The position numbers and the translations under genes are program-made. Under the pieces are notes generated by a model. The model made no database searches, was not told the DNA's origin, and worked only from the letters and a program-made list of their open reading frames with translations. This document shows, in pieces, positions 4,135-61,538 of a DNA stretch of 64,000 bases. The DNA is from Cryobacterium roopkundense (lineage in GTDB: Bacteria > Actinomycetota > Actinomycetes > Actinomycetales > Microbacteriaceae): NCBI RefSeq assembly GCF_014200405.1, contig NZ_JACHBQ010000001.1, forward strand, positions 3,038,001-3,102,000. The letters run 5' to 3'. The first letter of the stretch is position 1; the number at the start of each line of letters is the position of its first letter.

Positions 4135-4136
4135 GT

Positions 4137-29435: not shown

Positions 29436-29690
29436 TTAGGCGCGGGCGCGGCGGCGGATGATGGGGACCGAGACGAGACCGAGACCGAGGGCCAGGGCGC
29501 CGACGGCCGGCCACATGAGCAGCGTGGCGGCATCCGTTCCCGTGGAGGGCAGCGTGCTCGTGCCCGTACCCGTGCTGGTGCTGTTGCTCGCCGGCCCCGA
29601 GGGCACGTACGTCGCGGCGTTGGCAACTGACGGCACAGCAAAGAATACGAGACCCGCTAACGCAACTGCCGCGAAAGTCTTTCGAACCAT
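29436..29690 (-). CDS. Very small sortase-substrate-like surface peptide (LPSTG), module 1
   Basis: 84 residues. ATG preceded by AAGGAG with an 8-base spacer. Signal peptide (MVRKTFAAVALAGLVFF..., cleavage near ANAA), then only ~25 mature residues, rich in Ser, Thr and Gly (SNSTSTGTGTST), then the sorting signal: LPSTG, a hydrophobic segment and a final RRRAR tail. After sorting, almost nothing but a Ser/Thr-rich peptide would remain on the wall. It lies 78 bases downstream of a DUF4012 gene; two paralogous pairs occur later in the window, where the small protein carries an extra Ig-like domain. No sortase gene is in the window. Confidence 0.85.
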   Translation of the reverse strand: MVRKTFAAVALAGLVFFAVPSVANAATYVPSGPASNSTSTGTGTSTLPSTGTDAATLLMWPAVGALALGLGLVSVPIIRRRARA

Positions 29691-29768
29691 GATGACAACT
29701 CCTTACCCGAATTGAAGAGCCCAATTGACGTGCAGTTTATGCCGATTGAGCGTGTCTCACTATAGGGG

Positions 29769-31742: not shown

Positions 31743-33011
31743 ATGACACAACGCAAACTGGTCATTGTGGGGCAGGGCTACGTGGGCCTGCCGGTCACGA
31801 TGCGGGCCATCGAGGTGGGCTACACCGTGGTGGGCATCGACCTCGACGCGGCCCGCATCGCCAATCTGCGCGGCGGCATCTCCTACGTCGACGACGTGTC
31901 CCACGATCAGCTGCGTGCCGCGCTCGCGACCGGCCGCTACCTGCCCACCACCGACTACGCCGACGTGGCCAACTTCGACGTCGCCGTGATCACGGTTCCC
32001 ACTCCCCTGCGCGACACCCTGCCCGACCTGTCCTTCATCGAAGCGTCGAGCGCCTCCCTGTCGGAACACCTCACCCTCGGCGCCACGGTCATCCTCGAAT
32101 CCACGACCTACCCTGGCACCACCGAAGAGATGCTGGTTCCCATCCTCGAGAAGGGGTCCGGCCTGCAGGCCGGGCGCGACTTCCACGTGGGTTACAGCCC
32201 TGAGCGCATCGACCCCGGCAACACGCAGTGGGGCTTCGTGGAGACTCCGAAGGTGGTGTCGGGGGTGAACGCCGCGTCGCTCGCCCAGGTGAAGGCCTTC
32301 TACGACGAACTCGTGAACGAGACGGTTCCGGTGAGTTCCCCGAAGGAGGCCGAGCTCACCAAGCTGCTCGAGAACACATTCCGTCACGTGAATATTGCCC
32401 TGGTGAATGAGCTCGCCATCTTCGCGCACCAGCTCGGGGTGAACGTGTGGGAGTCCATCGAGGCCGCCGGCACGAAGCCGTTCGGCTTCATGAAATTCAC
32501 GCCGGGCCCCGGCGTGGGCGGCCACTGCCTGCCGGTCGATCCGAGCTACCTGTCCTGGCAGGTTAAACGCAAGCTCGGGCAGAACTTTCGTTTCGTCGAG
32601 CTCGCCAACGACGTGAACGACCACATGCCGCAGTACGTCGTGCAGCGGATGCTGGAACTTCTCAACGAAGACGGTAAGGCCATGAAGAACTCGCGTGTGC
32701 TCATGCTCGGACTGGCATACAAGAAGAACACCGGCGACATCCGCGAGGCTCCCTCCGTGCACCTCGCCGACCTGCTGCGCGGCTACGGGGCCACCGTGAG
32801 CGCCGTTGACACGCACGTGGAGAGCCATCGCTGGCCGGCTGGCATCGACTGCAGCGAGCTCACCCGGGAGACTGTCGCCGCCGCCGACATTGTGGTGCTG
32901 CTCACCGAACACGACGAATTCGACCTCGGCCTGCTCGGCGAAGGCAGCACGCTCGTGCTCGACACCAAGAACTGCGTGCCCGCCACCTCGACCCGCGTGC
33001 ACCGGCTCTGA
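31743..33011 (+). CDS. UDP-N-acetylhexosamine 6-dehydrogenase (WbpA/TviB/WecC type)
   Basis: 422 residues. N-terminal NAD fold 'LVIVGQGYVGLPVTMRAI'. Middle: 'VGYSPERIDPGNTQWGF', typical of UDP-GlcNAc/ManNAc dehydrogenases rather than UDP-Glc dehydrogenase. The catalytic Cys is in 'GPGVGGHCLPVDPSYLSW'. C-terminal UDP-binding domain 'MLGLAYKKNTGDIREAPS'. It makes a UDP-HexNAc uronic acid. The following gene is a sugar epimerase, so UDP-GalNAcA via WbpA/WbpP-like steps is plausible; UDP-ManNAcA is the alternative. AAAGGA lies ~11 bases before the ATG. First gene of the rightward glycan operon. Confidence 0.9.
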   Translation: MTQRKLVIVGQGYVGLPVTMRAIEVGYTVVGIDLDAARIANLRGGISYVDDVSHDQLRAALATGRYLPTTDYADVANFDVAVITVPTPLRDTLPDLSFIEASSASLSEHLTLGATVILESTTYPGTTEEMLVPILEKGSGLQAGRDFHVGYSPERIDPGNTQWGFVETPKVVSGVNAASLAQVKAFYDELVNETVPVSSPKEAELTKLLENTFRHVNIALVNELAIFAHQLGVNVWESIEAAGTKPFGFMKFTPGPGVGGHCLPVDPSYLSWQVKRKLGQNFRFVELANDVNDHMPQYVVQRMLELLNEDGKAMKNSRVLMLGLAYKKNTGDIREAPSVHLADLLRGYGATVSAVDTHVESHRWPAGIDCSELTRETVAAADIVVLLTEHDEFDLGLLGEGSTLVLDTKNCVPATSTRVHRL

Positions 33012-33026
33012 GGGGTGGCGGCGGCG

Positions 33027-33956
33027 ATGGAGGTTCTGATCACCGGTGGGTGCGGGTTCATCGGCACGAATCTGGTGGACAGACTGTTGCGTGAGCCGGG
33101 GATCGACCGGGTGCGCACCCTCGACAACTACGCCACGGGCATCCGTCGTGTCGTGGCGGATGCGCGCGTGTGGGAGATCGAAGGAGACCTGCGCGACTAC
33201 GACGCCGTGCTGCGCGCGAGCGCCGGCGTGCAGGCGATCGTGCATCTGGGCGCGCTGCCGTCGGTGCCGCGGTCGCTGCACGATCCGATGAGCACCAATA
33301 ACGTGAACGTGACGGGCACCCTGCACGTGCTCGAGGCTGCGCGCGCCAGTGGGGTGAACCACGTGAGTGTGGCGTCCTCGTCGAGCGTCTACGGGGCCAA
33401 CCCGGCCCTGCCGAAGATCGAGACGCTCGCCACGCTGCCACTGAGTCCCTATGCAGTGAGCAAACTCGCCACCGAGTCCTACGCCAACGCCTACGCCACA
33501 AGTTTCGGGCTGCACACGCTTGCACTGCGGTTCTTCAACGTGTTCGGACCGCTGCAGCGCGCCGACCACGTGTACGCCGCGGTGATTCCCCGGTTTCTCG
33601 CGGCGCTCAAGAACGACGAACCGCTCACGGTGTTCGGCGACGGCGAGCAGTCCCGCGATTTCACGTCGGTGCATGCCGTCACCGACGCCCTCACCAAGGC
33701 GCTGCTGCGCACGGTGACGAGCCCCACCCCGGTGAACCTCGCCTTCGGCACCCGCACCTCGTTGAACACGGTGATCGGGTTGTTGCAGCAGCTGCATCCG
33801 CGCCCGATCCAGGTGACCTACGCGCCGGGCCGGGCGGGCGACGTGGCGCACTCGCAGGCGAGTTCTGCTCTGCTCGGATCGCTGATCCCCGACGTGGAGC
33901 GGCCGGAGTTCGCGCTCGCGCTGCGGCAGGTCTACGACTGGTACATGGGGCTGTGA
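33027..33956 (+). CDS. NAD-dependent UDP-sugar 4-epimerase
   Basis: 309 residues from ATG 33027 (AGGGG upstream); an in-frame GTG 12 bases earlier is less likely. Short-chain dehydrogenase fold with GxxGxxG 'VLITGGCGFIGTNLVDRLL', active site 'SVASSSSVYGANPALPKIE' and YxxxK in 'SPYAVSKLATESYA', plus 'LRFFNVFGPLQRADHVYAAV' and 'FGDGEQSRDFTSV'. Similar to UDP-GlcNAc/GlcNAcA 4-epimerases of WbpP/TviC type. Acts with the preceding dehydrogenase on the same nucleotide sugar. Four bases separate it from the flippase gene. Confidence 0.88.
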   Translation: MEVLITGGCGFIGTNLVDRLLREPGIDRVRTLDNYATGIRRVVADARVWEIEGDLRDYDAVLRASAGVQAIVHLGALPSVPRSLHDPMSTNNVNVTGTLHVLEAARASGVNHVSVASSSSVYGANPALPKIETLATLPLSPYAVSKLATESYANAYATSFGLHTLALRFFNVFGPLQRADHVYAAVIPRFLAALKNDEPLTVFGDGEQSRDFTSVHAVTDALTKALLRTVTSPTPVNLAFGTRTSLNTVIGLLQQLHPRPIQVTYAPGRAGDVAHSQASSALLGSLIPDVERPEFALALRQVYDWYMGL

Positions 33957-33960
33957 ACGG

Positions 33961-35307
33961 ATGACGTTGCCCGAGTCCACGCGCAGCGCGAGCGGGGCAG
34001 CCCTGCGCACCAGGGCGCTGCTGCTCGGGATCGCCACCGGCCTCGGCTCCCGGGTGCTCACCCTCGCGGCGCCGTTGCTCACGATCCCGGTGACGCTGCG
34101 CTACCTCGGCGCCGACCTGTTCGGCTTCTGGATGATCATCACGTCGATCACCGCGATCGGCATGTTCGCCGACCTCGGCCTCGGCAACGGGCTGCTCACC
34201 CGGCTGGTGTGGGCGGTCGCCGAGCGCGACGGCGCCAGGGCCAGGACCCTCGTGAGCACGGCCTACCTCAGCCTCGGCGGCATCGCCCTGCTGCTGCTCG
34301 CCGCGATCTGGCTCGTCGTGCCGAGCATCGACTGGCAGCGCATCGAGGCGCAGAGCGCCACACTCGCCCCGGCGACCGCGCAGGTCGTGGCTGGCCTGGC
34401 CCTCTCCGCCTTCGCCATCACCATCCCGCTGGCGCTCGTGCAGCGGGTGCAGTACGCCCTGCAGGAGGCCTGGAAGAGCAACATCTGGCAGGTTGCCGGC
34501 GCGATCGCCACGATAGCCGCCGTCTACGCCGCCGCTTGGCTCGACCTGGGCGTCGTGGCGGTGATCGCCGCGGCCGTCTTCGCCGGCCCGTTCGTGATTC
34601 TGCTGAACAACGTGTTCTACTACGCGGTCAGCCACCGCGAGCTCGCCCCCACCCTGCGCACGGCGTCGGCATCCGCTGCCGGGTCGCTGCTGCGCGTGGG
34701 GCTGGCGTTCTTCCTGCTGTCCATCCTCACGTCGGTTTCCCTCAACGTGGACAACCTGATCGTGGCCAGGGTCGCCGATCTGCCCACGGTTAGCCAGTTC
34801 GCGATCACCACCAAGCTCTTCGCGCTGCTCGCCCTCACCGTGACTCTCGTGGCGCTGCCGCTCTGGCCGGCCAACGGCGAGGCGTTGGCCCGCGGGGATC
34901 TGGACTGGGTGCGCAAGACCACCCGGGCCATGGTGCTGTTCTCGGTCGGCGCCGTGGCAGTGGGCGGCCTCGTGCTCGTGCTCGCCCGCAACCTGATCGC
35001 CCAGCTCTGGCTCGGCGACGGCCACGCCATCTCCCTCGGCCTCGCCCTCAGCCTCACCGTGTGGTCGATCGTGATCGCGTTCTGCTCACCGTTTTTCAGC
35101 GTGCAGAACAGCGTGGGCAACCTGGGGTACCAGTACGTGGGCTGGGGCCTCTTCGCCCTCGCGTCGATCCCGCTCAAGTTCGTGTTCTACCCGCTGTTCG
35201 GTCTCGCCGGCATTCCGCTCGCCGGCGCCGCTGCCTACGCCGTGTTCCTGGTTCCCACCGCCCTGCTCGGGTACCGGGCCACCCTCGGCCGGGTGGTGGT
35301 CCCGTGA
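33961..35307 (+). CDS. Polysaccharide flippase, Wzx-like (MOP superfamily)
   Basis: 448 residues, about 12-14 hydrophobic segments and no large soluble domain. Start region 'GLGSRVLTLAAPLLTIPVTL', then 'RYLGADLFGFWMIITSITAI' and 'FADLGLGNGLLTRLV', the usual opening of oligosaccharide flippases. It is expected to turn undecaprenyl-diphosphate-linked repeat units across the membrane. It is the only flippase candidate in the locus and so probably serves the bacillosamine/FucNAc unit. The stop overlaps the GTG of the next glycosyltransferase. Confidence 0.88.
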   Translation: MTLPESTRSASGAALRTRALLLGIATGLGSRVLTLAAPLLTIPVTLRYLGADLFGFWMIITSITAIGMFADLGLGNGLLTRLVWAVAERDGARARTLVSTAYLSLGGIALLLLAAIWLVVPSIDWQRIEAQSATLAPATAQVVAGLALSAFAITIPLALVQRVQYALQEAWKSNIWQVAGAIATIAAVYAAAWLDLGVVAVIAAAVFAGPFVILLNNVFYYAVSHRELAPTLRTASASAAGSLLRVGLAFFLLSILTSVSLNVDNLIVARVADLPTVSQFAITTKLFALLALTVTLVALPLWPANGEALARGDLDWVRKTTRAMVLFSVGAVAVGGLVLVLARNLIAQLWLGDGHAISLGLALSLTVWSIVIAFCSPFFSVQNSVGNLGYQYVGWGLFALASIPLKFVFYPLFGLAGIPLAGAAAYAVFLVPTALLGYRATLGRVVVP

Positions 35308-36557
35308 CTGAGCTGCACGTGGTCTATGTGGGCCCGGTCGACTTCGGCACGTCTTCGGCCGATGCCCAGCGCATGCTCGGCATCGCCCAGGCTCTGCTGG
35401 CCGCCGGCGACAGGGTGAGCGTGGGTTCCGCGGCCTGGACCACCGAAGCGCGTGCGCCGGGCGATGACCCGCGACTCACTGTCACCCCGCTCGGCGAGCT
35501 GCCGCTGCCCGGCTGGCGGAAGCTGCGCCGGGTCTGGCGCGGCATCAGCTGGGGCCGCGCCACCCGCGACTGGATCGAAGGAATGCAGCCCGCCCCCGAC
35601 GCGATAGTGCTTTACGGCACCTCGATCGGCTACCTGCTGCGCCTGCTGCCGCTGGCCCGGCGGCGCCGGATTCCGCTCGTCATCGACGCTGTCGAGTGGT
35701 ACCAGGCCTCGCACCTTCCCGGCGGGCGGTTCGGCCCGTTCGCCCTCGCCAACACCCTGTCCATGCGGCTCCTCGCCCCACGTTCCACCGGCGCTCTCGT
35801 GATCAGTCGCTTCCTCGCCGAGCACTTCGAGGGCCGGGGCGTGCCGGTGCTGCGCCTGCCGCCGTTGTTCCAGATCGACGCGGGAGCGCCCGTGCAGCCG
35901 GCACCGCAGCATCCGCTCACGCTCTCGTATCTCGGGTCCGTGGGCAAGAAAGACAGCCCCACCATCCGCAGCCTCGTGCTGTTGCCGGGAGCTCTCGGAG
36001 CGGATGCCGACCGGCTGAGCGTGAACATTGTGGGCCTCACAGCGGATGCCGCGGCGCGGCTACTCGGCCACGAAGCCCCGGTCGGCCACGCGTGCCTGCA
36101 CTTTCATGGCCGGTTGCCGGCCGCCGAAGCCCGCCGGGTGATGGCCACGAGCCACTTCTCGGTGCTGCAGCGCGGCGAGGAACGGTTTGCGCGGGCGGGG
36201 TTTCCGTCGAAGGTGCCCGAGAGTCTCGTGTTGGGCGTTCCGGTGCTCGCCAACCTCACGAGCGATCTCGCCGAACACCTCGTGGAGGGGGTGAACGCCC
36301 GGGTGCTCACCGATGCTCGGCCGGAGTCTCTCGCGGCGGCAGTGATCGCGGCGCTTACCGAGCCGTACGTGTTCGACAGGGCCGCGATCGCCCAGTCGGC
36401 CCGGGAGGCTTTCTCCCCAGCCCGGTGCGCGCGGCCGCTGCACTATTTCCTGGTGCGCCTGGCCGGTGTCGCGGCCCGCCGCGAGCGGGAGACGCCCACG
36501 GAAACGCCGGAGCACCCGGAGCGTTTCGACCGGCGGGGCGGCTCCCGTGCCCACTGA
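35304..36557 (+). CDS. Glycosyltransferase, GT-B fold (GT4-like)
   Basis: 417 residues from GTG 35304, which overlaps the flippase stop. N-terminal region 'ELHVVYVGPVDFGTSSADAQ', acceptor domain with 'PLVIDAVEWYQASHLPGG', C-terminal donor domain with 'LSYLGSVGKKDSPTIRSL', 'LHFHGRLPAAEARRVMATSH', 'FPSKVPESLVLGVPVLANLT' and 'DLAEHLVEGVN'. The arrangement is that of GT4-type retaining transferases using a nucleotide sugar. Donor sugar unknown. Overlaps the following acyltransferase by 11 bases. Confidence 0.85.
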   Translation: MTELHVVYVGPVDFGTSSADAQRMLGIAQALLAAGDRVSVGSAAWTTEARAPGDDPRLTVTPLGELPLPGWRKLRRVWRGISWGRATRDWIEGMQPAPDAIVLYGTSIGYLLRLLPLARRRRIPLVIDAVEWYQASHLPGGRFGPFALANTLSMRLLAPRSTGALVISRFLAEHFEGRGVPVLRLPPLFQIDAGAPVQPAPQHPLTLSYLGSVGKKDSPTIRSLVLLPGALGADADRLSVNIVGLTADAAARLLGHEAPVGHACLHFHGRLPAAEARRVMATSHFSVLQRGEERFARAGFPSKVPESLVLGVPVLANLTSDLAEHLVEGVNARVLTDARPESLAAAVIAALTEPYVFDRAAIAQSAREAFSPARCARPLHYFLVRLAGVAARRERETPTETPEHPERFDRRGGSRAH

Positions 36558-38580
36558 CGCGCCCCGGCCGGCGCCCGCCGCCCCCGTGGTGAAGCTGCAT
36601 TTTCGCGCTGACATCAACGGGCTGCGCGCGCTCGCGATAGTTCCAGTGGTGCTGTTCCACGCCGGACTGCCCGGCTTTAGCGGCGGGTTCACCGGCGTTG
36701 ACGTGTTCTTCGTGATCTCGGGATACCTGATCACCTCGAACCTGCTGCGCGAGGTGGATCGTACCGGCCGGTTGCGCCTCGGCGCCTTCTGGGCCGCTCG
36801 GTTACGTCGCCTCGGCCCCGCCCTGGCGGTGATGATCGTGGTCACCGTGCTCGCGAGCCTCGTGGTGCTCTCGCCGCTGGAATGGGCGGCGCTGGCGCAG
36901 CAGGCCGCGGCCGCGGCGCTCTACGTGTCGAACGTGCTCTTCGCGGCGCAATCATCGAACTACTTCGCGGAGGGCCTCGACCAGAGCGTGCTGCTGCACA
37001 CCTGGACTCTGGGAGTGGAGGAGCAGTTCTACCTGCTGTGGCCGCTGCTGATTCTGGGCGCGTGCCGACTCGCGCGCTCCCGCCGCGGCGGCCTGCGTCG
37101 CACGCTTGTGGCGGCTTTCGCCATCACCCTGCTCGCTTCGTTCGCGTTGTCGGTCTGGCAAACGGATGCCCACCCCGCGTGGGCGTTCTACCTGCTGCCG
37201 AGCCGGGCGTGGGAGTTTGCGGCGGCGGGGCTGCTCGCCGCCATCCCCCTCGGCGCCCGGATTCGGCGTCGGCGCAGCCGCGTGCTGCTCGCCGCGGCCG
37301 GTCTGGCCCTCGTGCTCGCCGGGGTGTTTCTGCTCAGCGATGCCACCCCATTCCCGGGCGTCGCGGCCGTGGTGCCGGTGCTCGGCACTCTCCTGCTCAT
37401 CGTGGCCGGCACCCCTCGCGGCGACGCAGTGCCCGAGCGCCCCGCCGGTGTCACCCGGCTGCTCGGCACCGCCGGGCTGCAGTGGATCGGGTCGCGGTCG
37501 TACTCCTGGTACCTGTGGCACTGGCCGGTGATCATCCTGGTGATGGCGGCGCTGCGCACCCAGTCGCCGGTCGTCGGCAGCATCGCGGCGCTCGTGAGCC
37601 TGGGCATCGCCGCGCTCAGTTACCGCTACGTGGAGCAGAAGGCACGGGTGAACGCCCGGCTCGTGCGGTCGGCTCCACTCACCTTCGGGGTAATGGGCAC
37701 GAGCGTCGCGCTCGTGCTGCTGCTCTCGGGCGGGGTCTCTGCCGGCGCGGGCATAGCCACCGCGAGCGAGGCGCTCGCCCCGTACCAGGCCGCTGTCGCG
37801 GCGCGGGGGCAGGCCACCTGCAGCGAGCGGACGACCGCCGACAGCGGCATCCACTACTGCGTGGCCGGCGATGAGACTGCAGAGCGCACCGTGATGCTGG
37901 TGGGAGATTCCCACGCCGGTATGTGGCAGGAAGCCCTCTCAACGGCGGCGCAGGCGGAGGGATACCGGCTGGTGGCCAGGTGGTTGTCGGCGTGCCCGGC
38001 CATTCCGGTGGCGGTGGTGAACGCGGAGGGCGTGAACGATGCCGAGTGCACCCAGTTTCGCGCCGGCACCGTGCGGCTGATCGGCGAGGAGCGGCCGGCG
38101 GCCGTGCTGATCGTGAACGCAAACAGCTACCTGGGCCGGGTGATCGGCGACACCGGCGGCGCACTCTCTCCCGCGGCGCAGGGCGAGCGGTGGGCCGCGG
38201 CGTATGCCCAGTTCGTGTCGCAGGTGCGTGGTTTCGGTGCGGTGGCGGCGTCGATCGAAGACAACCCGCAGTTCAGTTTCGACCCAGTGATGTGCCTCAC
38301 CCGGGTCTTCGGTTCGGCGGCGGCCTGCTCGCCGCCGCTCGAGTCTGCGCTCGCGACCACCGAGGCGCTGCGGCGGGCCGAGGCGGCGGCCGTGGAGGCG
38401 CTGCACGTGGCGCCGCGCCTTCTCACCGTGGAGCGCATGTGCGACGGCCGCTCCTGCCGGGTGCTCGTGGGCCGCGACCCGATTCTCGCCGACCAGGGCC
38501 ACCTGTCCGCCGCGTTCACCGCGCTGCAGGCGCCCGACCTGCGCCGCTTCCTGTCACAAGCGGTCGCGGGCCGGGGTTAG
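36547..38580 (+). CDS. Membrane O-acyltransferase with C-terminal SGNH domain (OatA-like)
   Basis: 677 residues from GTG 36547. N-terminal acyltransferase-3 domain of ~10 membrane segments: 'RADINGLRALAIVPVVLFHA' with 'GGFTGVDVFFVISGYLIT' and 'HTWTLGVEEQFYLLWPLL'. C-terminal extracellular SGNH domain: nucleophile block 'MLVGDSHAGMWQEAL' near residue 450 and the late Asp-x-x-His in 'LADQGHLSAAF'. This two-domain design moves acetyl groups through the membrane and onto cell-surface sugars (peptidoglycan or polysaccharide O-acetylation). Inside a glycan locus, acetylation of the polymer is the likely role. The end overlaps a convergent gene by 4 bases. Confidence 0.92.
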   Translation: MPTDAPRPAPAAPVVKLHFRADINGLRALAIVPVVLFHAGLPGFSGGFTGVDVFFVISGYLITSNLLREVDRTGRLRLGAFWAARLRRLGPALAVMIVVTVLASLVVLSPLEWAALAQQAAAAALYVSNVLFAAQSSNYFAEGLDQSVLLHTWTLGVEEQFYLLWPLLILGACRLARSRRGGLRRTLVAAFAITLLASFALSVWQTDAHPAWAFYLLPSRAWEFAAAGLLAAIPLGARIRRRRSRVLLAAAGLALVLAGVFLLSDATPFPGVAAVVPVLGTLLLIVAGTPRGDAVPERPAGVTRLLGTAGLQWIGSRSYSWYLWHWPVIILVMAALRTQSPVVGSIAALVSLGIAALSYRYVEQKARVNARLVRSAPLTFGVMGTSVALVLLLSGGVSAGAGIATASEALAPYQAAVAARGQATCSERTTADSGIHYCVAGDETAERTVMLVGDSHAGMWQEALSTAAQAEGYRLVARWLSACPAIPVAVVNAEGVNDAECTQFRAGTVRLIGEERPAAVLIVNANSYLGRVIGDTGGALSPAAQGERWAAAYAQFVSQVRGFGAVAASIEDNPQFSFDPVMCLTRVFGSAAACSPPLESALATTEALRRAEAAAVEALHVAPRLLTVERMCDGRSCRVLVGRDPILADQGHLSAAFTALQAPDLRRFLSQAVAGRG

Positions 38581-39209
38581 TCGGCGAGGTGGGCGAGGTC
38601 GTGCGCGCCGAGCCGCTGGGCCAGCGGGTACAGCGCGCGCTCGTGCGCAAGCGCTTGCGTGAGCGTGAACCGGCCGCGAACCGGCCGCGCGGGATTGCCA
38701 GCCACCACGCTGTATGGGGGAACGCTGCGCGACACCACCGCTCCCGCACCCACGACGCATCCGCGGGAGATCACCACGCCGTGCAGAATCGTGGCGCCGC
38801 CGCCCACCCACACATCGTCCTCTATCCGCACGCCGCGGTCGTCGCTGTCCCGTTTCATTGAGTCGTCCACATTCACGATGAACTCCCCCACCACGTCGAA
38901 CCGGTGGTTGCCGCCGCGCACTGTGACGCCGGGCCCGAACACCACGTTGTTGCCGATGTGGATCTCGGCCCGCGTCGCCATCAGCGTGGGCCGCACGCCC
39001 AGGTTCACGTTGTTTCCCACAAAGATCGTCCGGTGCGTGTACGTACCCGCCGGGTCGAACACGAAGTTGCGCCCCCGCGCCCCGAATCGGTCGGCCTGCG
39101 CGTAGCCGCTTACCACCCACCCGGCGTGCCCTGCCGCATGCCCCACCGCCTCGAGCGCGCGCGCGACGACCGCACCAGCGCGAGACGGATGCCCCGGCTC
39201 AATTCGCAT
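38577..39209 (-). CDS. Hexapeptide-repeat O-acetyltransferase (LbH fold)
   Basis: 210 residues from ATG 39209, overlapping the preceding gene by 11 bases with GAGG upstream; longer starts would only add Arg/Pro-rich sequence. The left-handed beta-helix repeats are clear: 'IFVGNNVNLGVRPTLMAT', 'IHIGNNVVFGPGVTVRG', 'VRIEDDVWVGGGATILHG' and 'VISRGCVVGAGAVVSR', then 'VPPYSVVAGNPARPVR'. His in 'GGNHRFDV' fits the catalytic position. Probably acetylates a sugar of the glycan in the cytosol. Co-transcribed with the double glycosyltransferase. Confidence 0.88.
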   Translation of the reverse strand: MRIEPGHPSRAGAVVARALEAVGHAAGHAGWVVSGYAQADRFGARGRNFVFDPAGTYTHRTIFVGNNVNLGVRPTLMATRAEIHIGNNVVFGPGVTVRGGNHRFDVVGEFIVNVDDSMKRDSDDRGVRIEDDVWVGGGATILHGVVISRGCVVGAGAVVSRSVPPYSVVAGNPARPVRGRFTLTQALAHERALYPLAQRLGAHDLAHLAD

Positions 39210-41598: not shown

Positions 41599-41798
41599 GG
41601 GCGTTCCTCCAACCGGGCTGGGACCGAGCCTGTCGAGAGCACAACAAACACGGGCGTGCGATTCTGGTCACTGAGATGCTGCCACGAAAGGGCCAATCCC
41701 GGCAGGGCCAATTGTGCGCCACACCTTACATGCCCCGCCGGAGAGACGTATGGTGCTTCAAAGCCCTGCCGATTGTGAAGAGGGGTCGGGCATCTGTT
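41599..41798. other. Divergent intergenic region
   Basis: Separates the double glycosyltransferase (left) from a Wzy-like gene (right). A short direct repeat GGGCCAAT occurs twice near 41690-41715. GAAGAGGGG near 41777 could be a ribosome site for the rightward gene. No clear promoter hexamers are seen. Confidence 0.35.
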
Positions 41799-50376: not shown

Positions 50377-51506
50377 GAGTACACGGTGACGAAGTCGTGC
50401 ACGGCCGCGGCTACGCGCTCTACCTCGGCGGCCCGCAGCGCCGAGCCGCTCGGCAGGGCGAGCCCGGTCTCGAACAGGCGCTGCGCGTTGCCGTTGAGCA
50501 GGCGGCGCGCCCCGGCGTACACGGGCTGCAGGTGCATGGGCTTCCAGAGCGGCCGGGTCTCGATGTCGAGCGCCCGCAGCGACGCGCCGAGCTCCTCGGC
50601 CGACCAGCCGGCCGTGTCGGGGTGCACCAGCACCGCGGTGAGCCAGCAGTTGTCGTCGGCGTCGTTCTCGCCGCCGAAGATCCGCACGCCGGGAAGGCCG
50701 GCGAACAGGCGCCGGTAGGTCTCCCGTATGCGCCGCCGCCTGGCGAGCATGCCGTCGAGCCGGGTTAGTTGGCCCCGGCCGAGTGCCGCCAGCAGATTGC
50801 TCATGCGGTAGTTATACCCCACCTCGGCGTGTTCGTAGTGGGTCACCGGCAGCCGCGCCTGGGTCGAGAGCGAGCGGCTGCGCGCGGCGAGCGCGGCGTC
50901 GTCGGTGAGCAGCATGCCGCCGCCGGAGGTGGTCATCATCTTGTTGCCGTTGAACGAGACAATGGATGCCGCCCCGAGCGACCCGACGGCCCGCCCGCTG
51001 AAGTGCGCGCCCAGCGACTCGGCCGCGTCGGCGAGCACGGGCACGCCGTACTCGGCGGCCACCCGGTCGATCGCGGCGTAGTCGGCGGCTTTGCCGAGCA
51101 GGTCAACGGGCACGATCGCGGCCACCCGCTCGCCGGCGCCGGTGAGGCGGGCGAGCGCCTGGCGCAGCAGGCCGGGGTGCAGGTTGCCGGTGGTCGGGTC
51201 GCTGTCCACGAAGTACGGTTCGGCGCCGGTGTACACGATGGCGTTGGCCGTGGCCACGAACGTGAGGGTGGCCGTCACCACCACGGTGCCGGGGCCGGCG
51301 CCCAGCCCGAGCAGCCCGAGGTGCAGCGCGGCGGTGCCGGAGCTGAGCGCCACGCCGTGCGCCACGCCCACCCGTGCGGCGAGTTCGGCTTCGAAGGCGT
51401 CCACGTCGGGGCCGAGAGGGGCGATCCAGCCCGAGCGCATCGCGGCGAGCACGTAGCGCTGTTCCACCTCGCCCACGTCGGGTGCCGACAGGTAGATGCG
51501 TGTCAT
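50373..51506 (-). CDS. pglE: PLP-dependent UDP-4-keto-sugar aminotransferase (PglE, DegT/DnrJ family)
   Basis: 377 residues from ATG 51506, overlapping the pglF stop. Family motifs: 'RIYLSAPDVGEVEQRYVL', 'GVALSSGTAALHLGLLGLG', 'PVLADAAESLGAHFSGR', PLP-lysine near residue 189 in 'SFNGNKMMTTSGGGML' and 'VGYNYRMSNLLAALG'. It aminates the C4 keto group of the PglF product. 'RPLWKPMHLQPVY' near the C-terminus matches PglE/PseC-type substrate-site residues. Confidence 0.93.
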   Translation of the reverse strand: MTRIYLSAPDVGEVEQRYVLAAMRSGWIAPLGPDVDAFEAELAARVGVAHGVALSSGTAALHLGLLGLGAGPGTVVVTATLTFVATANAIVYTGAEPYFVDSDPTTGNLHPGLLRQALARLTGAGERVAAIVPVDLLGKAADYAAIDRVAAEYGVPVLADAAESLGAHFSGRAVGSLGAASIVSFNGNKMMTTSGGGMLLTDDAALAARSRSLSTQARLPVTHYEHAEVGYNYRMSNLLAALGRGQLTRLDGMLARRRRIRETYRRLFAGLPGVRIFGGENDADDNCWLTAVLVHPDTAGWSAEELGASLRALDIETRPLWKPMHLQPVYAGARRLLNGNAQRLFETGLALPSGSALRAAEVERVAAAVHDFVTVYS

Positions 51507-53344
51507 TGGGTGCCTGGCCGGCCGTCGGCGTACGCGGCGCCGTGCCGGTGCGACGACCAGCGCGCCTCCCACTCGCCCTTGTTCAGGCCGTCGGGGGGCA
51601 GCGGGGTGATCTTCGCGTGCGAGATCTTCGGGTGCAGCGGGCGATCGTCGCTCTCGCCGTCGTCCATCAGCTCCTCGTGCAGTTTCTCGCCCTGGCGCAG
51701 CCCGGTGTAGACGATCTCCACGTTCTGCCCCGACAGGTCGATCATGCGCCGGGCCACGTCGAGAATCTTCACCTGCTCCCCCATGTCGAGAATGAGCACC
51801 TCGGCCGGCCGGCCGATGCCGCCGGCCTGCACCACGAGCTGGCAGGCCTCCGGAATGGTCATGAAGAAGCGCGTCACCTCCGGGTCGGTGATGGTGAGCG
51901 GCCCGCCGGCCTCGATCAGGGCGGTGAAAGTGGGCAGCATCGAGCCGCGGCTGCCGATCACGTTGCCGAACCGCACCGAGAGATACGTCTCGCCCGTTGC
52001 CTCGGCGGCCCACGCCGTGAGGCGTTCGGCCAGCCGTTTGGAATGACCGAGCACGCTCGTGGGCCGGGCGGCCTTGTCGGTGGAGATGTTCACGAACGTC
52101 GTCACCCCGACGGCAGCGGATGCCTCCAGCACGTTGAGCGTGCCGATCACGTTGGTCTTCCACGCCTCGTCGGGGTACTGCTCGAGCATCGGCAGGTGTT
52201 TGAGGGCGGCCGCGTGGAACACCACCTGCGGCCGGCGCTCCTCGAAGACCGCGCACAGCGCCTCGGCGTCGCGGATGTCGGCGAGCACCACGTCGTTGGT
52301 GTCGAGCAGGCCGTGCCCGCGAATGGAGATCTGCGAGGTCTGCAGCCCGGTCTCGTCGCGGTCGAGCATGATCAGCTCGCTGGGGGCGAAGCGGTAGATC
52401 TGCCGGCAGAGCTCCGAACCGATGGAGCCGCCCGCGCCCGTGACGAGCACGCGCTTGCCGCGCAGGTACCCGGCCACCGATTCCACGTGGGTGTCGAGCG
52501 GAGGGCGTCCCATCAGGTCTTCGATCGAGATGTCGCGCAGGTCGGTCAGGCCGGACCTGCCTTCGAGCAGGTCTTCCCAGGGCGGCAGCACCAACACCCG
52601 CAGCCCCGCGACGCGGGCGGCGTCGGCGACGGCGCGCATGAGCGTGGCGTCGGGGTGGGCTATCGTCACCACGAGGGTCGTCGCTCCGGTGGTCGCGGCG
52701 ACGGCTGGCAGCGACTGCAGGGTGCCGAGCACGCGCACGCCGTCAAACCAGACGTTGCGTTTGAGGGGATCATCGTCGATCAGTCCCACCGGCCGGTACC
52801 CGGACTGCCGGTCAGTCTTCATGTGGCGCACGATTTCGGCGCCCAGGTACCCGGCGCCGAAGATGAGCGCGGGGCTTGCGTTCTCGTCGGGGGCGAGCGA
52901 ACGCTCAAGCAACAGCCGACGTACGTAGCGCACCCCACCCATCAGCACGAAGGCGATGGGCAGAGCGATGAACACTGTGCTGCGGGGAATCTGCAGGGCG
53001 GTGCCGAACAACGCCACGGGCACGCCCACGACCAGGGTGACCACGAGCACCACGCCGAGCAGGGCACGCACCTCGGCGAAGCTCCCGTAGCGGTGGCGGC
53101 CCTGGTAGAGGAAGAACGACCACCCCACCACGAGTTGCAGCAGGCACGCGACCGCGGCCATCAGCAGCAGCGGCAGCCAGGAGATCGAGGACAGGTCGAA
53201 CTCGTAGCGCAGGGCCTCCGCGGCGAACAGGGCCAGCACCCAGCAGGCGGCATCGAGCGCGAATTGCGTGACGAAGTGCAGCACCGCGGGGGCGGAACGA
53301 CGCCTCGGCACGCGGCTTCCCGTGCCGAACATACCTAGGGCCAT
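51503..53344 (-). CDS. pglF: Membrane UDP-GlcNAc 4,6-dehydratase (PglF/WbpM type)
   Basis: 613 residues from ATG 53344 (GGAGG upstream). Four N-terminal membrane segments (residues ~20-135), a CoA-binding-like Rossmann domain ('ALIFGAGYLGAEIVRHMKTD') and a C-terminal catalytic dehydratase domain: 'VLVTGAGGSIGSELCRQIYR', 'FHAAALKHLPMLEQYPDEA', 'ISTDKAARPTSVLGHSKRLA' (Asp-Lys active site; Tyr of YxxxK replaced) and 'RFGNVIGSRGSMLPTF'. It makes UDP-4-keto-6-deoxy-GlcNAc for PglE. The start overlaps the end of the upstream Asp-box gene by 10 bases. Confidence 0.93.
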   Translation of the reverse strand: MALGMFGTGSRVPRRRSAPAVLHFVTQFALDAACWVLALFAAEALRYEFDLSSISWLPLLLMAAVACLLQLVVGWSFFLYQGRHRYGSFAEVRALLGVVLVVTLVVGVPVALFGTALQIPRSTVFIALPIAFVLMGGVRYVRRLLLERSLAPDENASPALIFGAGYLGAEIVRHMKTDRQSGYRPVGLIDDDPLKRNVWFDGVRVLGTLQSLPAVAATTGATTLVVTIAHPDATLMRAVADAARVAGLRVLVLPPWEDLLEGRSGLTDLRDISIEDLMGRPPLDTHVESVAGYLRGKRVLVTGAGGSIGSELCRQIYRFAPSELIMLDRDETGLQTSQISIRGHGLLDTNDVVLADIRDAEALCAVFEERRPQVVFHAAALKHLPMLEQYPDEAWKTNVIGTLNVLEASAAVGVTTFVNISTDKAARPTSVLGHSKRLAERLTAWAAEATGETYLSVRFGNVIGSRGSMLPTFTALIEAGGPLTITDPEVTRFFMTIPEACQLVVQAGGIGRPAEVLILDMGEQVKILDVARRMIDLSGQNVEIVYTGLRQGEKLHEELMDDGESDDRPLHPKISHAKITPLPPDGLNKGEWEARWSSHRHGAAYADGRPGTQ

Positions 53345-54339
53345 GTTGCGCCTCCGTCGCTGGATGTGGACATGATAGCCCCGGCCCACAACCAGAGAAC
53401 CCCCGGCGAACTGGCAATGGCCACGTCGCCCGGTTCGAAGGCCGCCTCCCGGCAGCCGGCCACTGTCGGCGCCGCGTCGGCCGCGTCGGCCAGCGTGAGC
53501 ACCTGCACTCCCGCGCAGCCTGCCTGTCCGGCCGCGGCGATCACGTAGCCGCCGCCGGCGAGCCCGGCGAGGTTCACCGCGCCGGGCACCGCGACCCCCG
53601 GTGTCCAGCTGGAGCCACCGTCTGTCGTGCGCACGAGCATCGGAGCGGATGCCGCGGCATCCGCTGGCTGTACAGGCGGGCAGAGCACGGCGCCGCTCGC
53701 GTCGCTCTGCGCGGCGAGGGTGATCGGGGCCGGGCAGGGTGCCGCAAAGGCCCCGAGGGGACTGTGCACGGTGGCGGGTTCGGCGGGGTTCACGTACCAG
53801 TTTCCGGTCAGTCGCAGCGGGAAGTCGTCCCAGTCGGCGCCGGCCACATAGGTGGCCATCAGGTGCGGGGTGCAATCCGCGGCGAGAAGAGTGACAAAGG
53901 ATGCCTCGGAATCGCTCAGCGCCGTGATCACGAGCACCGCGGTGGCTCCCGTTTCACCGCCGGCGTCGAAGCCGGTCCAGGTGGCACCGGAGTCGGTGGA
54001 CCGCTCGGGCATGGCCCGGGCGTCGGGGCAGCTGCCCGTGGCCGCGCGCCACGCGGTGGTGGCGTTGAGGGACGACAACACTCGGCGCGGAGTGACAGGG
54101 GGAACCACCGGCGCCGCGCTCGGCACCGCGCTCGGCACCGGGGTGGGAGTGGGGGCGGCGCTGGCCAGGGCGTCGACGGTCTTGCTGGTCACGAGCGGGT
54201 CCGGCGGTGTGATCACCGTGAGCGCGTAGACCACGAGGGCGATGTCGACCAGAACAAAGAGCGCCAAGGCCCCGCCCCACCAACGACGCCACCGGACAGC
54301 CTGACCGGGTTTCCGATGACGTCGTGGCGAATGCGGCAA
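53335..54339 (-). CDS. Membrane-anchored extracellular protein with Asp-box (BNR) motifs
   Basis: 334 residues. Basic cytoplasmic start, one membrane segment (~residues 23-45), then a Pro/Ala/Val-rich linker (~60-85), then an outside domain. Three Asp-box motifs (S/T-x-D-x-G-x-x-W) are visible: 'STDSGATWTGF', 'TTDGGSSWTPG' and, at the very C-terminus, 'SSDGGATWP'. These mark beta-propeller blades as in sialidases and photosystem II assembly factors. Only three are seen, so the propeller is short or diverged. Six or more cysteines suggest disulfides outside the cell. It overlaps pglF and leads the operon; function unknown, possibly glycan binding. Confidence 0.75.
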   Translation of the reverse strand: MPHSPRRHRKPGQAVRWRRWWGGALALFVLVDIALVVYALTVITPPDPLVTSKTVDALASAAPTPTPVPSAVPSAAPVVPPVTPRRVLSSLNATTAWRAATGSCPDARAMPERSTDSGATWTGFDAGGETGATAVLVITALSDSEASFVTLLAADCTPHLMATYVAGADWDDFPLRLTGNWYVNPAEPATVHSPLGAFAAPCPAPITLAAQSDASGAVLCPPVQPADAAASAPMLVRTTDGGSSWTPGVAVPGAVNLAGLAGGGYVIAAAGQAGCAGVQVLTLADAADAAPTVAGCREAAFEPGDVAIASSPGVLWLWAGAIMSTSSDGGATWP

Positions 54340-57217: not shown

Positions 57218-58531
57218 TTAGGGGCGGCCGAGGGCTATGTAGTTCCAGCCGGCGGCGCGCCACGCGGCGGCGTCGAGGGTGTTGCGTCCGTCGATGATCG
57301 TGGCGGTGCGCACCAGGGTCTTCGCCCAGGCCGGGTCGATGTCCTTGAACGCGGGCCACTCTGTCACGAGCACCACGGCATCCGCTCCGGTGAGCGTCTC
57401 CTCGATACTCGTCGAATAGCTCAACTGCGGATGCCGCGCGCGGCTGTTTGCGATGGCCTGCGGGTCGGTGGCCATAACGTCGGCACCCAGGCCGCGCAAC
57501 TGCACGGCCACGTCGAGCGCCGGCGAGTCTCGCACGTCGTCGGAGTGCGGCTTGAAGCTGAGGCCGAGCACGGCGACCTTCTTGTTGTAGACCGAGCCGC
57601 CGAGAGTGGAGACGGCGAGGTCGATCACGCGCTTGCGACGGCGCAGGTTGATCGCGTCCACCTCTTTCAAGAACGCGACAGACTCGCCACGGCCGAGTTC
57701 TTCGGCGCGGGCGGTGAAGGCGCGGATGTCCTTGGGCAGGCAGCCGCCACCGAAGCCCACGCCGGCGTTCAGAAAGCGGCGGCCGATGCGGGCGTCGTAG
57801 CCGATGGCATCCGCGAGCTGGGTCACGTCGGCGCCCGAGACCTCGGCGATCTCGGCCATGGCGTTGATGAAGCTGATCTTGGTGGCCAGGAACGCGTTCG
57901 CGGCCACCTTCACGAGCTCGGCGGTGGCGTAGTCGGTGACCACGAGCGGGGTGTTGGCCACGAGCGCTGCGGCGTAGACCCGGCTCAGCAGGCCGATGGC
58001 GTGCTTGCCGGCCTCGCCCTCCGGCACCCCGTACACGAGGCGGTCGGGGCTGATGGTGTCATGCACGGCAAAGCCCTCGCGCAGAAACTCGGGGTTCCAG
58101 GCGAGGGAGGCGCCGCTCCCGGATGCCTCCACCACGGCGGCAAGGCGTGCTGCGGTGCCTACCGGCACGGTGCTCTTGCCCACCACGAGGTCGCCGGGGT
58201 TGAGATACGGGAGCAGGGAGTCGATCGCGCCGTCCACGTAGGTGAGGTCGGCGGCGTAGCTGCCGGGCTTCTGCGGGGTGCCCACGGCGATGAAATGCAC
58301 CTGTGAGCCGGCGGCATCCGCTATGTCGGAGCTGAACCGCAGCCGGCCTGAGGCCATCGCTGAGGTGAGCACCTCGGGCAGGCCGGGCTCGAAGAACGGC
58401 GGACGACCTTCGGCGAGGTGGGCGATCTTGGCGGCGTCCACGTCGATGCCGATCACCTCGTGGCCGAGTTCCGCCATGGCAGATGCGTGCACCGCACCCA
58501 GGTAGCCGCAGCCGATAACCGATATCTTCAT
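57218..58531 (-). CDS. ugd: UDP-glucose 6-dehydrogenase
   Basis: 437 residues from ATG 58531 (an ATG 15 bases upstream is possible). NAD fold at the very start 'MKISVIGCGYLGAVHASAMA', 'VGKSTVPVGTAARLA', 'NPEFLREGFAVHDTISPDRL', catalytic Cys in 'FGGGCLPKDIRAF' and C-terminal 'VAVLGLSFKPHSDDVRDSPA'. It oxidises UDP-glucose to UDP-glucuronate, a precursor for acidic polysaccharide or for pentose sugars. It lies between DUF4012 modules 2 and 3, separated from the upstream LPXTG gene by a strong hairpin. Confidence 0.93.
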   Translation of the reverse strand: MKISVIGCGYLGAVHASAMAELGHEVIGIDVDAAKIAHLAEGRPPFFEPGLPEVLTSAMASGRLRFSSDIADAAGSQVHFIAVGTPQKPGSYAADLTYVDGAIDSLLPYLNPGDLVVGKSTVPVGTAARLAAVVEASGSGASLAWNPEFLREGFAVHDTISPDRLVYGVPEGEAGKHAIGLLSRVYAAALVANTPLVVTDYATAELVKVAANAFLATKISFINAMAEIAEVSGADVTQLADAIGYDARIGRRFLNAGVGFGGGCLPKDIRAFTARAEELGRGESVAFLKEVDAINLRRRKRVIDLAVSTLGGSVYNKKVAVLGLSFKPHSDDVRDSPALDVAVQLRGLGADVMATDPQAIANSRARHPQLSYSTSIEETLTGADAVVLVTEWPAFKDIDPAWAKTLVRTATIIDGRNTLDAAAWRAAGWNYIALGRP

Positions 58532-58657
58532 GCTTTCAATCCCCATACGTTGAGCCTATCGGCGCGGAGTGCGCCACTTTCGCCGTGGTGCGTGCGGGGC
58601 CCGGTCAGCGGATGCCGCGGGCCGGGCCGGGATGACGGCCCGGGTGCCCGCACGCAC

Positions 58658-59282: not shown

Positions 59283-59744
59283 AGTGGTCCCCTTGGGATT
59301 GGATTGATGGTTTCGCCGACACTGGCTCACTTCGAGTGAAGCTGATCGTCAGCATAGGGACGTTCCCAGCGGTTATCCAGTCGCTTTGTGCATGCTGGGG
59401 CCACCCGAAATGCCGGATATTTCGCGTGGTTCCGGCGCACGGATAGCCACGTTTCGACCCCCCGTTTTGCGCGCCGTCTCCCGCCGTTCCGGGCGATTGA
59501 GCGAGCGGATGCCGTGGGGCTGGGCACGCAGTCGCGGGCTATGACCGGGACTGAGCTTGTCTCAAGTGTTGTTCGGCTCGCCTGGGGCGCCTGGCCAGCC
59601 GTGACCCCCATCACCGACCCCCGCGCTGCCGAGCGCGGCGTCATTTCAGAATGCGCGCCAGGCGCCCGGGCCGCTGCAACCACGCGTCTGCGCCCCGGAT
59701 TGGGGGGCGGAATTCCGCGCTCCCCGAACCGATCTGAGCGGGGT
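59283..59744. other. Long intergenic region between DUF4012 module 3 and its LPXTG gene
   Basis: No convincing gene. It contains the TCACTTCGAGTGA palindrome near 59328-59340 (possible operator for the LPXTG gene) and a perfect 7-bp stem hairpin CCGCGCT-GCCG-AGCGCGG at 59623-59640 that may end the DUF4012 transcript. In modules 1 and 2 this gap is only 78 and 55 bases. Confidence 0.5.
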
Positions 59745-61538
59745 TCAGCAGCGCGCGGCCAACTCCTGCGTCTCCGGCAGATTGATCAGCGGCGTGCTCT
59801 GCACGGTGAGGTCACCGTCGAACGGCTCGGCGCCGAGCCATTCGAAGCGCAGCACGGTGCTCTCCCCCGGCGCGAGCTCCACGTCGAGTGTGCTCACCGG
59901 GTATCCCCCGTCGGTGGCCGGGTGATACGGCACCACGGCGCCGTCGCGTGTCAGGCCGAGGTTGTCCATGTCGGGAGCGCCGTAGGCCGAGACCATCGTC
60001 TTGATGTTGCCCGGGGGCACGCCGAAGTCGCCTCCGCCCGTGACGTAGAGCGGCAGGGAGAGTGCGGCGTCGGCGGGCGCGCTGTTGGTGAGAGTGACGT
60101 CCACACCGAATGTGGGCCGCTTGTCCTGGCGACAGGTCTTCCGCCCCACGGCGTACTGCACGTCAAGGTAGAGATCCATTTTCGAACCCGTGCCATCGTT
60201 GAGGTACACACCAAAGGTCTTTTCGGCGGCAGTGCTCACCGGCAGCCCACCGGCGATGGTGGTGTCGGCGAGAACGGCTTGCTCGTCGGGGTGTGCGCTC
60301 CACACCAGCACGCGGTGTTCGCCGCCCGCTTCCCCGAGCGCCTCGATCAGGGCGACGGGGTCGACGTCGCCGCCCGACACCGCCGTGAAGACGGCCGCGG
60401 CGGCGCCGGCAAAGAAGTCATTCTGTTGGATGGGTTCGTACTTCTCATACGCGTCGCCCAGCAGCAGCTGCACGGCGTTGTCGGCGGTCAACACTTCGCC
60501 GGTGGGCAGCGTGATCGGACCGGTGGCTCGCAGCAGGTAGCTCAGCGTCACGGGGTCCACCGAAATCACACCGTCGGCCTGCAGCCCGAAGCGCAGGTTC
60601 CACATCTGCTGCGCGATCTGGCCGCTGAGCGCAAAGTTCGGGGTGAGGTTCACATTCTGAACGAACTGCCCCGTCACATCGCCGTAGATGCTCCGCGTGT
60701 CCGTGGGCAGGGTGATCACCGGGGCGTCATGGCGGGGGAAGTCGGTGCTCGAGGCCTGTTGCGCCAACTCGATCCGCCCGTTCTCGGTGTGGATGAGCGC
60801 CAGGGCCCCCGGGATGCCGCCGGTGGACCGCAGCTCGGCCGGGTTCTGGAACAGCAGCACGTAGTTGCGCGGGCCGGCGTGCCCCAGCATGGCGGGAACG
60901 ATCTCCACCGCGCGATTGAGCGCCCCCACACTCACGGCAGTGTCCGTCACCGTCGTGCTCAGCTGCTGCGCGGCGTCTCGCACCACGGAAAGCGTGCGGG
61001 TCGTGTCGATTGCGAGCGCATTGCTCTCCGCCCTCACGAGCGCCGTGTGCGCCGAGGCAATCCGGGGCTGCGCTGCCACGAGCGGATCCAGGTTGATTGC
61101 ACCGTCCACCGGCCGGAAGACCGTCGGGTCCAGGGCGCCCGCGATGGTCGCGAGCGGCCCGACCACGTTCTGCGACACGTCGTCGACGACGGCGGCGATT
61201 TCCCTGACCCCGGTGAGGTTGGTGCCCAGAAACGGCACCACTTCGAAGGCGCGCCAGATGGGATCGCTCGTCAGGGCCGCGGCACGCGAGGCGTGCTCGG
61301 CCAGTTGCTCCACCGATGCCTGCGCCGATTCGGGGTCGTCGCTGAGCACCTGCCCCTTGATCGCCGAGGCCAACGGGATGGCGCTTTCCAGCTCGGTCTT
61401 GGCCATGCTGCCGCGCACCCCCACCCACACGGCACCGGCAAACACCACGACGAGCACCCCCACCGCCCCGCGCACGATCATCTGTCGACGACGGGCGCGG
61501 CGGCGCGGGTCGGGGGCAGCGGGGTGGTGAGAGACCAT
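59745..61538 (-). CDS. DUF4012 membrane-anchored protein, module 3
   Basis: 597 residues from ATG 61538 (a TTG four codons earlier is possible). Arg-rich start (DPRRRARRRQMIV), one membrane segment, then the extracellular DUF4012 part: 'NYVLLFQNPAELRSTGGIPG', 'LLRATGPITLPTGEVLTADN', 'VLVWSAHPDEQAVLADTTIA', 'GVYLNDGTGSKMDLYL' and 'TCRQDKRPTFGVDVTLTN', with a terminal Cys (LAARC). No ribosome site; the leader TTGGATATTCGG before ATG resembles module 1. It lies 46 bases downstream of fcl on the same strand and may be transcribed with gmd-fcl. Confidence 0.88.
   Translation of the reverse strand: MVSHHPAAPDPRRRARRRQMIVRGAVGVLVVVFAGAVWVGVRGSMAKTELESAIPLASAIKGQVLSDDPESAQASVEQLAEHASRAAALTSDPIWRAFEVVPFLGTNLTGVREIAAVVDDVSQNVVGPLATIAGALDPTVFRPVDGAINLDPLVAAQPRIASAHTALVRAESNALAIDTTRTLSVVRDAAQQLSTTVTDTAVSVGALNRAVEIVPAMLGHAGPRNYVLLFQNPAELRSTGGIPGALALIHTENGRIELAQQASSTDFPRHDAPVITLPTDTRSIYGDVTGQFVQNVNLTPNFALSGQIAQQMWNLRFGLQADGVISVDPVTLSYLLRATGPITLPTGEVLTADNAVQLLLGDAYEKYEPIQQNDFFAGAAAAVFTAVSGGDVDPVALIEALGEAGGEHRVLVWSAHPDEQAVLADTTIAGGLPVSTAAEKTFGVYLNDGTGSKMDLYLDVQYAVGRKTCRQDKRPTFGVDVTLTNSAPADAALSLPLYVTGGGDFGVPPGNIKTMVSAYGAPDMDNLGLTRDGAVVPYHPATDGGYPVSTLDVELAPGESTVLRFEWLGAEPFDGDLTVQSTPLINLPETQELAARC

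Follow-up and report, generated by a model that had tools for sequence, protein, structure and literature searches.

Three DUF4012 modules on one strand

The window analysed here is a 64,000-nucleotide stretch of the Cryobacterium roopkundense genome (4.5 Mb, two contigs; RefSeq assembly GCF_014200405.1, contig NZ_JACHBQ010000001.1, positions 3,038,001 to 3,102,000). The closest named relatives of its proteins are from Cryobacterium. As noted in the original prediction, three times on its minus strand a gene for a DUF4012 protein (PF13196) is followed by a gene for a small secreted protein with an LPXTG or LAXTG sorting signal, and all six open reading frames (ORFs) translate at the positions listed in Table 1. 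We know of no function assigned to DUF4012, and a conserved partner with a sortase signal provides a concrete handle on it. The pairing is strongly conserved across the Microbacteriaceae and belongs to a single supported group of the DUF4012 tree; tethering of surface polysaccharide to the wall is considered below as its possible role.

The three DUF4012 proteins, P0001, P0002 and P0003, match PF13196 with 152.8, 172.5 and 163.2 bits, respectively, against a curated cut-off of 28, and P0001 and P0002 share 55% and 54% identity with P0003. The copies had been taken for a triplication; however, the tree places the closest relative of each in another genome (77%, 61% and 69% identity), which rules out a recent triplication, and the three copies are three old, separate lineages that do not stem from a recent event.

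The partner proteins P0004, P0005 and P0006 all display, as read from their sequences, a signal-peptide-like start, a sorting motif, a hydrophobic stretch and an Arg-containing tail, and none has a Pfam match at E ≤ 0.01 or an NCBIfam match above the curated cut-off. P0005 and P0006 form one family (52% identity), with a signal peptide, a GYVP motif, one immunoglobulin (Ig)-like domain, LPATG or LASTG, the hydrophobic stretch and the tail. P0004 is a mini form in which the signal peptide and TYVP are followed by about 20 residues, LPSTG and the tail, and both of its ends are matched by the model of the small family. The P0001 lineage carries this mini form in all three genomes in which the lineage was seen (the window, L043 and L049). 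The distance from the DUF4012 stop to the start of the small gene is 78 bp in module 1, 55 bp in module 2 and 462 bp in module 3; the last exceeds the gap in most loci, and a 118-residue ORF without Pfam match lies within it at 59327-59683. A search with PF04203 located one class E sortase in the genome.

The pair is conserved and confined to one DUF4012 group

Outside Cryobacterium, 83 of the 89 full-length-type small genes found in 249 Microbacteriaceae genomes have a DUF4012 gene no further than 6 kb away, and 68 of the 89, spread over 59 of 63 genomes, begin immediately downstream of one. By our estimate, a gene placed at random would come that near in far less than 1% of cases, since a 3–4 Mb genome holds one or two DUF4012 genes. 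In Cryobacterium, where DUF4012 was found in 51 of 57 genomes, the count is 44 of 61 full-length small genes; these share the strand of a DUF4012 gene no more than 6 kb away, which they follow in 28 cases and precede in 16. Chance adjacency is ruled out by the counts in the genus, the counts in the family and the distribution on the tree, and the conserved co-occurrence on which the original prediction depended is thus borne out across the family.

The model of the small protein matches 86 of the 249 genomes and 42 of 85 genera; 67 of the 86 carry a full-length-type small gene (63 genomes in 30 other genera and four of Cryobacterium), and the remainder contain only partial matches inside longer proteins. 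DUF4012 itself occurs in 123 of the 249 genomes and in 48 of the 85 genera. In a separate scan of 21 named loci, DUF4012 was located directly upstream of the small gene in 16, downstream in two and nowhere in three, the upstream arrangement being found in Cryobacterium, Agreia, Leifsonia, Curtobacterium and Compostimonas. The pair is also present in another family of the same order (genome G064). A class-wide draw yielded matches to the small family in only 19 of 344 genomes, and DUF4012, far more widespread than its partner, was present in 60 of 197 genomes of a phylum-wide draw.

A tree of 110 DUF4012 proteins was computed with FastTree, leaving out four matches from the genus: two partial ones, one on a short locus (G032:C194) and the fourth DUF4012 of the present genome. 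One group of 80, with a support of 99, contains every DUF4012 labelled as paired when the tree was built; its members were picked out from the tree first and through their locus names afterwards. When the partner was rechecked stop to stop, it was directly downstream of 67 members of this group, near 7 and lacking for 6, compared with 0 of the 30 DUF4012 proteins outside the group, and presence or absence of the partner changes only four times on the tree. Since the loci from other genera were chosen for having the pair and those from Cryobacterium were not, the unbiased figure is that of Cryobacterium, 35 of 41 inside the group versus 0 of 28 outside it, which would become 35 of 42 if the fourth DUF4012 were placed in the group. 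The distances among DUF4012 proteins also correlate with those among their small partners (r = 0.79 for 56 pairs; maximum of 0.31 in 999 permutations), a correlation that shared ancestry alone could yield.

A conserved tyrosine and a sorting signal that can be lost

Small-protein features were scored for 107 entries, which, with two window proteins included twice, represent 105 distinct proteins. In 102 of them a Tyr residue occurs close to where the signal-peptide core ends, in 62 as YxP, and the three entries without it are a frame that is too long (the small protein within it has TYVP), a fragment and a remote match. The sorting motif [LPA]xTG is kept in 84 of the 105, and, with 21 proteins lacking xTG, the sortase signal finds no support as an indispensable trait. 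Ten Cryobacterium proteins adjoining DUF4012 have LAxAG or LPSAG in its place, and may stay in the membrane; they belong to loci L042, L080, L083, L086, L087, L091, L093, L096, L098 and L102. Some of these loci hold a second copy with xTG, as in L087, where LASTG occurs in the gene at 3913-4449 and LASAG in that at 9422-9946.

The small proteins had been proposed to act as Ser/Thr-rich acceptors of glycan. This part of the proposal was not upheld: mini forms elsewhere are, by eye, not consistently rich in Ser/Thr, and alignment A1 contains no invariant Ser or Thr, so that a Ser/Thr-rich acceptor finds no support as a conserved trait. The one Thr beyond the sorting signal that is conserved at 90%, T121, lies within the Ig-like domain that the mini forms lack. 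With Ser/Thr not conserved and Tyr conserved, the question moves to the N-terminal Tyr. Tyr-linked glycans are described for bacterial S-layers (PMC2943079); a binding or structural role would equally explain the conservation of the residue. It is rather unlikely, though worth stating, that a novel kind of DUF4012 transferase joins the polysaccharide covalently to the conserved Tyr, a few residues past the signal-peptide cleavage site, with sortase E fixing the other end of the protein to peptidoglycan. If this were true, Tyr-linked peptide tethers would offer a second way of attaching surface polysaccharide to the wall, alongside ligation by LytR-CpsA-Psr (LCP) enzymes.

These features bear on the possibility that the small proteins are independent surface proteins, such as adhesins or spacers, that merely share an operon with DUF4012. 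The small-protein profile matches many Ig domains of known structure (E 2.5e-6 for the best, above 0.01 for the others shown), and some small genes stand without DUF4012, in polysaccharide loci or elsewhere, or form tandem arrays. On the other hand, the mini forms leave little protein for an adhesin role, 83 of 89 genes are paired outside Cryobacterium, the tree requires only four changes, and the distances within pairs are correlated, even if shared ancestry could suffice for the latter. We regard independent surface proteins as an improbable explanation.

The glycan locus around the modules

The gene content of the locus (Table 1) supports a role in surface glycan. A set for the route to uridine diphosphate (UDP)-N-acetylfucosamine (FucNAc) is represented by FnlA/WbjB-like and WbcJ-like proteins and wecB. 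A set of the di-N-acetylbacillosamine (diNAcBac) type is recognizable at the domain level, with a PglD-type acetyltransferase, a DegT aminotransferase, a PF02719 dehydratase and a PglC-type Bac_transf protein. There are also two nucleoside diphosphate (NDP)-sugar dehydrogenases, a TviC-like epimerase, and gmd with an adjoining short-chain dehydrogenase/reductase (SDR) of the epimerase family. The genes for diNAcBac, FucNAc, uronate and fucose precursors named in the original prediction are present at the level of domains, however, most score below exact-function cut-offs. Among the locus genes scanned with NCBIfam, only wecB, gmd and the two NDP-sugar dehydrogenases exceed their curated cut-offs, and the exact sugars are for this reason unproven. 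The AT3-SGNH acyltransferase within the locus suggests that the polymer may be acylated.

Table 1 Positions of the module genes and of the surrounding glycan genes in the window
Feature	Position	Strand	Remark
DUF4012 protein 1 (P0001), 599 aa	29769..31568	-	PF13196 match; N-terminal hydrophobic segment, DUF4012 domain 221-364
Small sortase-signal protein 1 (P0004), 84 aa	29436..29690	-	mini form without Ig-like domain; TYVP, LPSTG
DUF4012 protein 2 (P0002), 607 aa	55039..56862	-	PF13196 match
Small protein 2 (P0005), 181 aa	54438..54983	-	GYVP, one Ig-like domain, LPATG
DUF4012 protein 3 (P0003), 597 aa	59745..61538	-	PF13196 match
Small protein 3 (P0006), 176 aa	58752..59282	-	GYVP, one Ig-like domain, LASTG
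NDP-sugar dehydrogenase	31743..33011	+	TIGR03026, above cut-off
TviC-like epimerase	33015..33956	+	below that model's cut-off
Polysacc_synt flippase-type protein	33961..35307	+	
AT3-SGNH acyltransferase	36466..38580	+	
Glycosyltransferase ORF	39199..41598	-	group 1 and family 4 matches
Wzy_C / O-antigen-ligase-type protein	41568..43019	+	
wecB, UDP-GlcNAc 2-epimerase	44548..45804	-	above cut-off
WbcJ-like reductase (FucNAc route)	45690..46802	-	below equivalog cut-off
FnlA/WbjB-like UDP-GlcNAc 4,6-dehydratase	46799..47914	-	below equivalog cut-off
Glycosyltransferase ORF	47847..49763	-	
PglD-type hexapeptide acetyltransferase	49112..49927	-	
PglC-type Bac_transf priming transferase	49753..50376	-	
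ORF with DegT aminotransferase domain	50373..52256	-	domain at residues 261-619
ORF with PF02719 nucleotide-sugar 4,6-dehydratase domain	51503..53875	-	domain at residues 476-754
UDP-glucose-dehydrogenase-type protein	57218..58546	-	between modules 2 and 3
Epimerase-family SDR adjoining gmd	61585..62664	-	probable GDP-fucose synthase, from position
gmd, GDP-mannose 4,6-dehydratase	62583..63653	-	above cut-off

The locus extends to the right of the window, where a fourth DUF4012 gene at genome position 3137593 and a fourth small gene at 3152730 lie about 15 kb apart and are accompanied by the gene set of Wzz/bacterial tyrosine kinase (BY-kinase), low-molecular-weight protein tyrosine phosphatase (LMW-PTP) and c6. 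The fourth DUF4012 falls within C1:3129316-3138018 (loci L006 and L007), with the kinase, phosphatase and c6 genes a few kb downstream. The c6 product is a 323-residue protein without Pfam match, encoded within 4 kb of 19 of the 80 DUF4012 genes of the partner group.

A candidate wall tether for surface polysaccharide

By analogy, we tentatively propose that the DUF4012 subfamily and its small sortase-signal protein may form one module that fixes surface polysaccharide to the wall, the reading that we prefer among those considered, though it is less likely than all the others combined. The analogy is with the closest tested system known to us, that of Actinomyces oris, in which LcpA, an LCP phosphotransferase that requires R149 and R266, is genetically linked to the sortase substrate GspA and glycosylates it before sortase anchoring (PMC6381275). 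In both actinobacterial systems a membrane-anchored protein that handles, or would handle, glycan is genetically linked to a sortase-anchored surface protein; they differ in that LcpA is a genuine LCP enzyme, catalytic Arg residues included, whereas DUF4012 is not detectably LCP, and in that GspA is glycosylated by experiment (PMC6381275). The DUF4012 module would thus follow the LcpA-GspA logic with another enzyme family and another substrate. Class E sortases prefer LAXTG (PMC5148588), the form of sorting signal seen in several of the small proteins; the Streptomyces substrates ChpA-C described there serve aerial-hypha formation, whereas those considered here are tied to polysaccharide genes.

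In the proposed mechanism, DUF4012 would be held by its single N-terminal hydrophobic segment, with the body of the protein outside the membrane, and would receive or transfer polysaccharide linked to polyprenyl pyrophosphate. The small protein, exported across the membrane, would bind the glycan or be joined to it covalently near the mature N-terminus, and sortase E would cut LPXTG/LAXTG and join the small protein to peptidoglycan, so that the polysaccharide would be tethered via a short protein instead of by LCP ligation to muramic acid. Were the tether to exist, LCP ligation would not be the sole actinobacterial way of fixing polysaccharide to the wall. The surface-glycan setting of the original prediction is supported, however, glycan transfer by DUF4012 and an acceptor role of the small protein are unproven, given the weak likeness to LCP and the lack of an Arg conserved at 90%.

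The neighbouring genes offer some support for the tether. An LCP ligase gene lies within 4 kb of 3 of the 80 partner-group DUF4012 genes versus 9 of the 30 others (p = 0.0004), and in Cryobacterium the figures are 1 of 41 versus 9 of 28 (p = 0.0009). All 19 genes labelled LCP match the LCP profile; an earlier test with a 7 kb radius, made before the labels were corrected, gave p = 0.076, and the present figures use tree-group labels. The scarcity is compatible with two kinds of locus, one attaching its polymer through LCP and the other through the sortase substrate. Of the 67 genomes that carry a full-length-type small gene, 65 have a sortase, and the remaining two are 66% and 88% complete. 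More telling than mere presence is the gene order in Curtobacterium ammoniigenes (L237:5795-7495), where DUF4012 and the small gene are followed directly by a class E sortase, the only confirmed case of its kind.

Several observations weigh against a tether. In Cryobacterium, 17 of the 61 full-length small genes have no DUF4012 gene within 6 kb, many of them on contigs without a DUF4012 match, and in 13 loci where the small gene stands alone (two apparently duplicates under different ids) tblastn detected no remnant of DUF4012. Conversely, the fourth DUF4012 of C. roopkundense, 50% identical to P0003 and absent from the tree, lacks a small gene within 6 kb, and DUF4012 proteins of other lineages work without the small partner. 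The xTG motif is absent from 21 of the 105 small proteins, ten of which carry AG for TG beside DUF4012, and a sortase is found in 231 of the 249 Microbacteriaceae genomes regardless of the pair, so that sortase presence alone says little. The LCP contrast involves related loci that are not phylogenetically independent, and priming transferases likewise lie near a smaller share of partner-group genes (13 of 80 versus 12 of 30, p = 0.01), which makes the contrast a lead and not proof; UDP-sugar dehydrogenases within 4 kb are equally common (34 of 80 and 13 of 30). With respect to the protein itself, no Arg is conserved at 90% across 30 diverse DUF4012 sequences, the three window proteins have no match to PF03816 (LCP) at E ≤ 0.01, and the hhalign probability for DUF4012 and LCP is 4–20%.

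Possible alternatives: assembly factor or divergent ligase

The neighbourhood also accommodates a different role, in which DUF4012 is a general extracytoplasmic factor of polysaccharide assembly or export that acts together with Wzz/BY-kinase and phosphatase, and the small protein, never glycosylated itself, serves as an accessory subunit or scaffold. Within 4 kb of partner-group DUF4012 genes, Wzz/BY-kinase genes are found in 26 of 80 cases and SDR-type sugar enzymes in 24 of 80; in Cryobacterium, a BY-kinase gene lies that close to 19 of 41 DUF4012 genes of the group versus 1 of 28 others. Twelve Cryobacterium loci have the same-strand order DUF4012, small gene, Wzz/BY-kinase, often with a second Wzz/BY-kinase gene before and an LMW-PTP gene after. 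Furthermore, DUF4012 is more widespread in the phylum than its partner, and the LAxAG forms would be expected to remain in the membrane. In the exopolysaccharide locus of Bifidobacterium longum 105-A, a DUF4012 gene is located between the priming transferase and wzz genes (PMC5412050), which resembles the present setting, and the description of that locus mentions no sortase substrate. Against this, a sortase signal would be superfluous in an accessory subunit, yet xTG is kept in 84 of 105 small proteins, and the sortase gene is next in line in C. ammoniigenes. We consider an assembly or export role only slightly less likely than the tether.

In a third role, DUF4012 would itself link polysaccharide to peptidoglycan as a divergent LCP-type ligase, and the small protein would only recruit it to the wall. 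LCP proteins are extracytoplasmic. DUF4012 proteins resemble them in location and in their occurrence in polysaccharide loci, and the two profiles align collinearly, if weakly, over 99–157 columns. The hhalign scores of 23.8/26.2 compare with maxima of 15.15 for shuffled columns (50 shuffles) and 21.0 for block-shuffled columns (50), and with 13.25 for the reversed profile. With a larger set the scores were 22.5/24.9, and among 38 other real families one reached 28.2 (over 20 columns) and one 22.4 (over 11 columns); a first comparison with narrow alignments gave no domain-level match. We take the profile match as a hint of a common fold only and do not claim LCP membership.

The DUF4012 layout comprises the N-terminal hydrophobic segment, a helical region, the DUF4012 domain and a C-terminal part. 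It differs from LCP by this extra helical region and by the C-terminal part, which has two Cys residues invariant in alignment A2 (Cys469 and Cys597), as well as by the missing Pfam match and the lack of a 90%-conserved Arg. The polar residues that are invariant or 90%-conserved in the 30 diverse sequences are Y226, Q231, E235, D322, D328, Y364 and K453. In the narrower alignment A2, R112 is invariant and R224 and R366 are conserved at 90%, their positions not being placed relative to LCP. By sequence, no convincing solved relative of DUF4012 was found except coiled-coil designs, which match the N-terminal helical part (E 8.7e-9). The scarcity of LCP genes beside the partner group would suit a divergent ligase; the lack of a conserved Arg argues against one, and outside the group several DUF4012 genes have an LCP gene in the same locus and therefore do not replace LCP there. 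Such a ligase is, in our assessment, very unlikely.

A search of one open-access library found nothing on the pair: its passages on DUF4012 give no account of a sortase substrate, and on sortase together with capsular polysaccharide or exopolysaccharide in Microbacteriaceae it yielded no paper.

Variant loci

Some loci depart from the arrangement of the window. Four of them (L287, L288, L289 and L290) have the order glycosyltransferase, SDR, SDR, small gene, UDP-sugar dehydrogenase, with neither a DUF4012 gene nor a remnant detected by tblastn. Arrays of small genes occur in L291, with four paralogues and no DUF4012 found, and in L244, with five around one DUF4012 gene, and some of the small proteins contain two Ig-like repeats. 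Mini small proteins with TYVP and LAxTG are encoded at a separate conserved site, near genes for proteins of 313, 362 and 259 residues, in L280, L281 and all six of the loci L273-L278.

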